From contig CALMOP010000049.1 in the NCBI GenBank assembly GCA_937871775.1, positions 1 through 32,500 on the forward strand: 32,500 nucleotides of DNA, in the 5' to 3' direction. The DNA is from an uncultured Gemmatimonadota bacterium (GTDB lineage: Bacteria; Gemmatimonadota; Gemmatimonadetes; Gemmatimonadales; GWC2-71-9). How positions within the stretch are numbered: the stretch's first letter is position 1; the number at the start of each line of letters is the position of its first letter. Below the pieces are notes generated by a model. The model worked only from the letters and a program-made list of their open reading frames with translations, did not search any database and was not told the origin of the DNA. Below, in pieces: positions 11,126-19,805 of the stretch. The translations under genes were made by a program, and so were the position numbers.

Positions 11126-11215
11126 GGGGAACGGGGAACGGGGAACGGGGAACAGGCCACCCTGCCCAACCCATTCGTGCCTATCCCGTTCCCCGGTCCC
11201 CGTTCCCCGTTCCCC
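11126..11215. repeat. Inverted heptamer array: (GGGGAAC)x4, 34-bp centre, then 4 units of GTTCCCC (one GGTCCCC)
   Basis: Units at 11126, 11133, 11140, 11147 (all GGGGAAC) and 11188, 11195, 11202, 11209 (GTTCCCC, GGTCCCC, GTTCCCC, GTTCCCC). Confidence 0.95.
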
Positions 11216-12377
11216 TGTCGCCCGACTTCGAACCGGGGAAAATGGTGTCCGGCTGGTGCCCCATCGCCTCGAGGTACTGCCGGTCGAAGGCGGCTGAGAT
11301 GGTCTCCCGGCGGGAGTAGGGGCCGGGCCGGTAGGCCCGTGACTGCACTCCCTGCTGGCTGAGTTCGCAGACGTGCCAGTCCTCGCGATTGGTCATGTCC
11401 CAGAATCGGGTGCCGTCCTCGATATCGAACGTCGGGTCCTTGAGGGTGTCCGGGTGGAACAGCCAGTGGCAGCTGATCCTGGTCCGGTCCACCGCCACCG
11501 GCCACAACAGGTGGAACATCACGTAGTCGGGGTGCAGGCTGAGCAGCATATTCGGCATGATCGAGTAGTAGTAGACCCGATCATGGTCCTCGGCCGGGAG
11601 CTGGGGGTCGACCGGCAGGCCGCACACCCGGCCCGACAGGGTCATGCTCCGGGAGCCGTCCGCCAGGATCATGTAGCCGCCGAGGAAGGGGCCCTCGACC
11701 AGGTCGTTCTCGCCCAGGTTCGGCGGGGTGCGCTTGGTCAGTGTGGGGTGCACCAGCGGGCAGTGATAACATTCGGAGTAGTTCTGCACCACCAGTTTCC
11801 AGTTGGCGCGGATGTCGTACTCGATCATCCGGCCCTGGTGCAGATTGGGAAGATTGAACCGGCTGAAGCGACCCAGCAGCGGGGCATGTTCCTCGGCGAA
11901 CGGCCGTGGGGCCTCGGCCAGGTTGATGAAGATGAAGCCTTCCCAGGTGGCCACCGCCACGGACCGGAGCGGCCAGTCCTGTTTCCGGAAGCCCTCGAGG
12001 TCGTTGGTGGCGGGGGCACCGATCAGTCTTCCGTCGAGCGCGTAGGTCCAGGCGTGATAGGGGCACTGGATGGTCTCACTGAACTGCCCCTGGTGCTCCT
12101 CGCACAGCCGGCTGCCACGGTGACGACACACATTGTAGAGGGCCCGGACCTCGCCGCTCTGGTCGCGCAGGATGATCAGGCTCTCCCCCGCGACCTCAAG
12201 CAGGAAGTAGTCGCCCGGCCTGGCGAGGCGCTGCTCGCGCTCGACGCATAGCCATTGCCGGGTGAACAACCGCTCCTGCTCCTCCGCCAGGATGGCGGGC
12301 GAGGTGAAGTAGCGGCCAGGAAGGGTGTGCTGCCCCTGGGTGGGAAGCTCGCGGGCATGCCAGCGCGTGGTGGTCAC
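11181..12377 (-). CDS. Rieske [2Fe-2S] aromatic ring-hydroxylating oxygenase alpha subunit
   Basis: CRHRGSRLCEEHQGQFSETIQCPYHAWTYALDG (CxH...CxxH) and the mononuclear-Fe region NYSECYHCPLVHP. The track start at 12386 is TTG; GTG at 12377 preferred. Confidence 0.93.
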   Translation of the reverse strand: MTTTRWHARELPTQGQHTLPGRYFTSPAILAEEQERLFTRQWLCVEREQRLARPGDYFLLEVAGESLIILRDQSGEVRALYNVCRHRGSRLCEEHQGQFSETIQCPYHAWTYALDGRLIGAPATNDLEGFRKQDWPLRSVAVATWEGFIFINLAEAPRPFAEEHAPLLGRFSRFNLPNLHQGRMIEYDIRANWKLVVQNYSECYHCPLVHPTLTKRTPPNLGENDLVEGPFLGGYMILADGSRSMTLSGRVCGLPVDPQLPAEDHDRVYYYSIMPNMLLSLHPDYVMFHLLWPVAVDRTRISCHWLFHPDTLKDPTFDIEDGTRFWDMTNREDWHVCELSQQGVQSRAYRPGPYSRRETISAAFDRQYLEAMGHQPDTIFPGSKSGDRGTGNGDRGTG

Positions 12378-12410
12378 ACGAAGCAACTCGTTGCGTGGTT
12401 ACCATGAAAC

Positions 12411-18251: not shown

Positions 18252-19805
18252 ATGCGCCGGTTCATCCTGCTGGCTACCCTGGTGCTGCCCTGCTGCCGCG
18301 CGGCCGGGCATGGGGCCACCGTGCTGTATGCCTCCGGCGCCGACCTGCAGAGCGTGGACCCGCTGTTCACCCGGCACCCGCTGGCGCTGCAGGTGCAGCG
18401 CTACGTGCTGCTGACGACGCTGGTCCGCTATGACTCCGCGCTCCGCCTGCAGCCCTATCTGGCGCGGCACTGGACCTGGTCGCCCGACGGCCGCCGGTTG
18501 ACGCTGCGGCTCTTCCCGGGACTGCGGTGGCATGATGGGGTCCTCACCACGGCGCGGGACGTGGCCTGGACCCTCGAACGGGCCCGGGATCTGGCCACCG
18601 GATATCCGCGGTACCATGATCTGGCACCTCTCGCGGCCGTGACATCCGTGGACGACACCACCCTGGTGCTGCAGTTCCGGGACCCGCCCGGCGCCATCCC
18701 CGACGTGCTTGCCGAGTTGGCGATTCTGCCCCGGCATCTGCTGGACACGGTGCCATTGGCTCGGCTGCGCCAGGCGGGGTGGCACGAGCATCCCGTCGGC
18801 AACGGTCCGTTCCGGTTCGTGGCGCACGAGGCCCATCGCCGCTGGGTGTTCGAGCGCAATCCTGATTTTCCAGCGGAGCTCGGGGGCCCACCTCGGCTCG
18901 AGCGCTTCATCGTCGCGGTGGTGGACGAGCCGATGACCAAGCTGGCGGCGCTCACCGCGGGGGAGATCGACTTCGCCGGCATCCAGCCGGCTCACGCGTC
19001 GTTCGTGGCGCGGGATTCCGACCTGGTGGTACGCGAGTATCCGGTCCTGTTCCCGACCGGCATCGTGTTCAACGCGCGCCGCCCGCCGTTCGACCGGCTG
19101 GAAGCCCGCCAGGCCGTCGACCGGGCCGTGGACCGGCGCCAGCTGGTCGATGGCTTCGCCTGGGGCTTCGCCACCCCGGCCGAGGGACCGGTGCCGCCAG
19201 AGTTAAGTAGCGCGTTGACCGTGATGCGTGGTGCGTGGTACGTGGTGCGGGGTGCGTGCTGCGTGCCGTGTGTGGAGCACTGCGGGCAGGGGACCGAGTT
19301 TCGAGATCTGAGTTCCGAGTTCCGGGTGCCCACCGCCGGACAGAACACGCAGCACGCATCACTCAGCACGCACCACGCGTCACGCACCACGCACCATCCG
19401 GAAGTGGCCCTCCACTTCGAACTCCTCACCGTCGGCTCCGGCGAAGCTGCGCTGGAGCAGATGGTCCAGGCCCAGTTGAGCAGGACCGGGATCGGGGTGA
19501 CCATCCGGCAGCTGGAACTGTCGGCCTTCCTGGCCCGGGTGTACGGTCCCACCCATGACTTCGACGCCGCCCTGCTGGGCACGCCCGGCGATCTCGGCCT
19601 CGGGTACCTGGGCCCGCTGGCGGCACTCTCGGGACTGGAGCCGCCGAGCGGACGCGCGGCGCTGCTCCGCTTCTACCGGGACCAGCTGCCGGTCAGTGTG
19701 TTGTACCATCCGCATGGGGTGCAAGGCGCCAATCGCCGGGTCCGTGGTGTGGTGTTGAGCCTGGCCGGAGAGCTCGAGAGTGTCACTCGCTGGGAGACTC
19801 GGTGA
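18252..19805 (+). CDS. ABC transporter family-5 substrate-binding protein, interrupted in frame by a heptamer-repeat segment
   Basis: Signal/lipoprotein-like MRRFILLATLVLPCCRAA; ASGADLQSVDPLFTRHPLALQ...LARHWTWSPDGRRLTLRLFPGLRWHDGVLTTARDVAWTLERA...VGNGPFRFV; low-complexity TVMRGAWYVVRGACCV...TQHASLSTHHASRTTHHP is encoded by the repeat. Confidence 0.9.
   Translation: MRRFILLATLVLPCCRAAGHGATVLYASGADLQSVDPLFTRHPLALQVQRYVLLTTLVRYDSALRLQPYLARHWTWSPDGRRLTLRLFPGLRWHDGVLTTARDVAWTLERARDLATGYPRYHDLAPLAAVTSVDDTTLVLQFRDPPGAIPDVLAELAILPRHLLDTVPLARLRQAGWHEHPVGNGPFRFVAHEAHRRWVFERNPDFPAELGGPPRLERFIVAVVDEPMTKLAALTAGEIDFAGIQPAHASFVARDSDLVVREYPVLFPTGIVFNARRPPFDRLEARQAVDRAVDRRQLVDGFAWGFATPAEGPVPPELSSALTVMRGAWYVVRGACCVPCVEHCGQGTEFRDLSSEFRVPTAGQNTQHASLSTHHASRTTHHPEVALHFELLTVGSGEAALEQMVQAQLSRTGIGVTIRQLELSAFLARVYGPTHDFDAALLGTPGDLGLGYLGPLAALSGLEPPSGRAALLRFYRDQLPVSVLYHPHGVQGANRRVRGVVLSLAGELESVTRWETR
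19222..19400. repeat. Nested heptamer inverted repeat inside the SBP gene: outer arms TGCGTGG-type / CCACGCA-type, inner direct array CGAGTTC-type
   Basis: Left arm 19222-19270 TGATGCG TGGTGCG TGGTACG TGGTGCG GGGTGCG TGCTGCG TGCCGTG; inner 19295-19329 CGAGTTT CGAGATC TGAGTTC CGAGTTC CGGGTGC; right arm 19345-19400 ACACGCA GCACGCA TCACTCA GCACGCA CCACGCG TCACGCA CCACGCA CCATCCG. Confidence 0.95.

Follow-up and report, generated by a model that had tools for sequence, protein, structure and literature searches.

Paired heptamer arrays and dispersed hairpins in bacteria

The STRR heptanucleotide repeats of cyanobacteria are intergenic heptanucleotide arrays, as are many of the arrays described here. 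Among the GGGGA(C/T)T repeats of Nostoc only a few inverted pairs have been reported, and bacterial genomes have long been known to be over-rich in heptamer repeats, with no mechanism to account for it (PMC4692102). In Xanthomonas, GGGAATC heptamer arrays are mostly intergenic and form 70-75 convergent inverted pairs near each other (Rehm et al. 2015, PMC4692102). In Geobacter metallireducens, octa- and heptanucleotide arrays of several classes are paired across the two strands at variable distance, and one heptanucleotide family also occurs within genes (PMC2700814). REPINs are short inverted, hairpin-forming pairs that are extragenic, genome-specific, and dispersed as units (Bertels and Rainey 2011, PMC3116915). 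Since paired arrays have been published for both Xanthomonas and G. metallireducens, the architecture discussed below is of a known kind, and to say that its inverted layout follows no known pattern would be too strong.

A hairpin of heptamer arrays inside a solute-binding protein gene

The window, that is, the whole stretch of 32,500 nucleotides that was analysed (contig C49), belongs to a 3.06-Mb MAG of 360 contigs with ~66% G+C (the host, G000), which is compared below with a congener (G001), a genome of another family (G050), and further relatives. The features of the window are the following:

18252..19805, + strand: family-5 solute-binding-protein (SBP) gene with the insert, 517 aa (PF00496, E 1.8e-55)
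19220..19272, + strand: 5' arm of ~7.4 TGCGTGR heptamers (CGTGGTG/TGCGTGG type), G-rich
19273..19345, no strand: hairpin loop, no second copy in the DNA examined
19295..19330, + strand: weak period-7 array CGAGTTC within the loop, without inverted partner
19346..19396, - strand: 3' arm of ~7.3 CACGCAY heptamers (the unit's reverse complement; CACGCAC type), C-rich
11126..11215, no strand: second element of this kind, GGGGAAC x4 ... CCCGTTC x4, flanked by convergent genes and folding as RNA with -64.6 kcal/mol (z -7.0)

The mirrored heptamer arrays first noticed in the SBP gene are real. With period-7 scores of 26.0 and 21.5, both arms lie above the best score of any shuffled 32.5-kb window (n=100; mean 9.4, maximum 18.5), and they are complementary at 81% across 52 nt. 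The segment folds as RNA with -104.5 kcal/mol (z -6.3), a stability reached by 0 of 200 shuffles, and as DNA with a z of -4.2. A second array nested in the loop had also been described; it is visible as CGAGTTC units, but its score of 11.5 falls within the shuffle range and is not clearly above chance, so that this description is supported only in part. As the loop is unique, only the arms link the SBP copy to a wider family. Rfam gave no match in the window, and a plasmid search gave none to the SBP element.

Orthologues of the SBP are present in most of 60 relatives, and the identity to the SBP of Gemmatimonadetes bacterium NC_groundwater_1452 (51%) is in the range of order-level relatives, on which basis the MAG is assigned to Gemmatimonadota. 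As had been noted, the reading frame stays open through the arrays and over the whole of 18252-19805. The homologue alignment bears out the suspicion of extra sequence: from the GPVPP to the FELLTVG motif, the SBP has 72 residues, compared with 24-31 in same-family homologues and 42-43 in other families. The replaced stretch is not the ordinary folded region that had been assumed, being variable in length and not uniformly folded; it is thus read as a tolerant linker, because it varies and several relatives lack its DSARxLL helix. By this alignment, the insert is a derived, in-frame insertion replacing a short, length-variable linker. The C-terminal 128 codons differ from the congener with a dN of 0.23 and a dS of 1.28, similar to other orthologues, and on these estimates purifying selection still acts on the gene outside the insert, which is not decaying. 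In the congener, the SBP contig breaks off within a few bases of where the insert would begin, and a repeat may be present there too; the N-terminal half of the congener SBP was searched for and not found. A related-locus search with the SBP returned no confirmed relative.

Unit families across the genome

Scanning covered 712 kb of the host and 307 kb of the congener. In the first 473 kb of the host sample, which includes the window and two contigs chosen for their arrays (C284 and C73), 22 period-7, 13 period-8, and 8 period-11 arrays were found, plus multiples of these periods, compared with 0 after shuffling. The later 239 kb were picked for TGCGTGR or GGGGAAC matches, so that array densities over the full 712 kb are inflated. 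Recurring unit families include TGCGTGR, GGGGAAC, AGGCGARR, GGCGGTAN, GGGAATNN, GGGAAGACAAC, and GGCTGAC, among others.

A pattern search for TGCGTGR (x3, up to two mismatches) gave 171 matches in the host, 0 in the congener, 26 in G050, and few elsewhere. The reversed-pattern control is high (97 in the host), since reading this unit backwards gives a similar sequence, and the evidence therefore lies in the contrast between genomes. GGGGAAC matches number 48 in the host, 23 in the congener, and 179 in genome G027, with few elsewhere, and the 8-mer CGGGGAAR has 61 in the congener and 0 in the host; for both units, the reversed control gave 0 in all three genomes. Important to note here is that matches overlap within arrays, so these numbers are not element counts. 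Across the genomes searched, the unit families of 7, 8, or 11 nt are shown to be genome-specific, with reciprocal absence between congeners.

The variants TGCGTGG and TGCGTGA each recur at many loci, and an arm is on average as similar to the arms of other loci as to the arm it pairs with (mean identity 0.90 vs 0.88). The idea that the units are specific to their locus was accordingly rejected, since the TGCGTGR unit is one genome-wide family whose arms match other loci equally well. The same comparison speaks against an origin of one arm by fold-back duplication of the other, a candidate that it left unsupported.

Several further observations were made on the unit families. In the 11-nt family GGGAAGACAAC (L048-type; L094 on contig C48, L149, L045, L151, and L145), nearly every array mixes GGGAAGAC and GGTGAGAC. 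Over a dozen period-8 arrays, often in inverted pairs, are crowded onto one 14-kb congener contig (L173, G001:C366). Exact TGCGTGR x4 arrays (L174-L253) occur in Chloroflexota, Verrucomicrobiota, a Desulfococcaceae genome with many copies, and others; they are mostly unpaired, and independent expansion could also give this distribution. The same x4 array lies on eleven viral-contig stretches (L322-L332), and viral contigs are a possible vehicle for such arrays between hosts.

Loops and a dispersed palindromic core

Most loops differ between elements. Some share a dispersed palindromic core, GTCATTGCGAG...CTCGCAATGAC, and repeats of the GTCATTGCGAG type are found in many other bacteria; a literature search by letters for this core returned unrelated papers only. 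A core of the form GTCATTGCGAGGGCGC...GCGCTCGCAATGACTG was seen in 17 related pieces of the sample, often forming the loop that separates 7- or 8-nt arrays. Core-bearing loci are the following:

L045:4359-4483; L149 (three copies); L135:8968-9096; L075; L085; L053

Contigs C284 and C56 (L055:3946-4019 and L101:3786-3859) carry a loop that is 89% identical between TGCGTGR arms. The same flank stands on opposite sides of the two copies, as if the loop had been inverted, and both lie at contig ends.

Gene ends, empty junctions, and copies within genes

Most copies are located at the 3' ends of genes. With genes predicted by a caller trained on the host sample, 87 of the 94 arrays fall in non-coding stretches, though the sample is 86% coding. 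The second element of the window (11126..11215) follows this distribution, its right arm overlapping the 3' end of a Rieske-type gene (11181-12386).

The original prediction proposed to look for empty sites in sister genomes, and array-free junctions were indeed found in the congener for other copies. Among 46 syntenic junctions, arrays are present in the host alone at 7, in both genomes at 1, and in neither at 38. At five of the 7 host-only junctions, the congener genes either overlap by 4 bp or have a gap of 4 bp, compared with 90-150 bp in the host, most of which is array DNA. The congener contigs were chosen via genes flanking host arrays, so this comparison is conditioned on host arrays and cannot show losses from the host. 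In other relatives, adjacent orthologues (taken from matched fragments) lie nearer each other than in the host, which makes gain in the host the simpler reading. Together with the differences in unit families between genomes, the empty sites agree with the proposal that an element entered the SBP gene and was tolerated. The further proposal, that it may move or be copied, gains from the empty sites elsewhere, from which transfer into new sites is inferred.

In-gene copies are rare (~3 of 68 sampled elements). A DUF885 gene of the host contains a period-7 GGGGAAC array (L151:3533-3563), and at the identical site in the congener (L289, reverse strand) there is a period-8 array with a score of 13.5, whose GGCTCGGC-type unit is frequent in that genome. 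In four other relatives, no 7-, 8-, or 11-nt array was found at this site. Furthermore, the linker of a kinase-PD40 protein contains a GGCGGTAC array, and the gene upstream of a maf-like gene has a C-terminal tail encoded by an array. Array-in-gene calls in contigs C209, C278, and C289 were set aside; they fall at predicted N-termini, where the start codon was probably mis-called.

Origin and spread

The SBP segment is probably one copy of a dispersed, non-coding hairpin family that multiplied via a genomic pool and was then reshaped by local slippage, a reading held with moderate confidence. A hairpin or hairpin seed from the genome's pool would be copied into a new site, after which replication slippage would extend or shorten each arm independently. 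Such copies would persist chiefly just after stop codons, where they do little harm, and the SBP copy would have survived because it has no in-frame stop, changes the length by a multiple of three, and lies in a tolerant linker. The elements behave like REPIN- or MITE-type dispersed hairpins with micro-tandem arms. No target-site duplication was seen by eye in the element flanks, no transposase was tied to the arrays, and no transposition event was found.

The strongest competitor, which we regard as possible and clearly less probable, is a local origin, in which slippage in place with a polymerase-set period creates the array, template switching adds the inverted arm, and units are common to several loci only because the process favours certain sequences. 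The 7-nt phase is kept while the unit drifts (contigs C113 and C209), heptamers are over-represented in many bacteria (PMC4692102), and the TGCGTGR unit is found in distant phyla, all as such a process would have it. It accounts less well for whole two-arm elements at junctions where the congener has none, for unit families that are strongly genome-specific and reciprocally absent in the congener, for the recurrence of both TGCGTGG and TGCGTGA at many loci, and for arms that are no closer to their own partner.

It is rather improbable that the elements are gene-end hairpins selected for transcript ends, mRNA stability, or protein binding, with the SBP copy as a stray. The tight fit to gene ends would suit such a role, as the distance from an array to the facing stop codon is mostly <15 bp, few lie in divergent regions (3 of 52), and a G-rich 5' arm precedes a C-rich 3' arm in 21 of 24 two-arm elements. 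Several copies, though not all, are very stable, whereas others, such as L049:1459-1608, fold no better than shuffles. The hairpins are also missing from the orthologous congener junctions. No T-run follows the 3' arms at 11215 and 19396, a terminator scan restricted to loops of 3-8 found no terminator-like site at either element of the window, and the GC-rich hairpin with a U-tract that defines an intrinsic terminator is not present. Copies would likewise remain at gene ends if they were simply tolerated there; a role at these sites is possible and not needed to explain the positions.

A REPIN system proper, in which a RAYT (Y1 transposase) moves the hairpins, is very unlikely. The inverted hairpin-forming pairs, their extragenic location, and their high copy number would fit, and there is one weak Y1 match each in the host and the congener. 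However, no Y1 match was found in G027 with its 179 GGGGAAC matches or in G050 with its 26 TGCGTGR matches (both only 69-71% complete), no typical array lies near the congener Y1 gene, and arms made of tandem micro-units are not REP palindromes. The view that Y1/RAYT transposases track the arrays is thus not supported by these gene searches. An assembly artefact joining two loci via a shared repeat can practically be discounted. In its favour, the genome is a short-read-type MAG with arrays enriched at contig ends (9 of 151 vs 2.0% of random windows); against it, the flanks encode, in frame, the N- and C-terminal halves of a single orthologous protein, the kinase gene lies downstream of the SBP gene in the congener too, and the unique loop anchors the middle.

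Beyond the preferred reading of a dispersed hairpin family, a more far-reaching and doubtful suggestion is that these elements form a distinct class of mobile DNA, in which what replicates is an array of short units and not one fixed sequence, and each genome has its own 7-, 8-, or 11-nt 'words' written as inverted pairs into gene junctions and at times into genes. If this were true, the differing words at one DUF885 site would imply a novel templated writing or copying activity.

Comparison with known systems

The lineage offers clean empty and filled sites between congeners together with reciprocal genome-specific unit families, and insertions have changed proteins (the SBP linker, the DUF885 loop, and a C-terminal tail). 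As a result, spread by copying as opposed to slippage in place becomes directly testable.

Like the Xanthomonas pairs, the SBP element consists of two heptamer arrays in convergent orientation and close together; its unit is TGCGTGR and not of the GGGNATC G-quadruplex type. Xanthomonas has one unit family with 83% of sites common to two species (PMC4692102), whereas the host has several 7-, 8-, and 11-nt families, mostly not found in the congener, and in-gene copies in addition. The arrays of G. metallireducens have fewer units per site and are read as IHF/HU binding sites (PMC2700814). An empty-site comparison was made for the host elements, and none was found in the available text on G. metallireducens (PMC2700814). 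With REPINs, the elements share two inverted copies that form a hairpin, but each REP is a palindrome associated with RAYT genes (PMC3116915), whereas the arms of the host elements are micro-tandem arrays of 7 nt. MITEs are scattered copies of one sequence that occupy some orthologous sites and not others; in the host elements, the units recur at many loci and the congener lacks arrays at matching sites, while most loops differ and only some have a common core. To these systems, the present elements add multiple unit families within one genome that turn over reciprocally between congeners, sites left empty, and a clear insertion within a gene.
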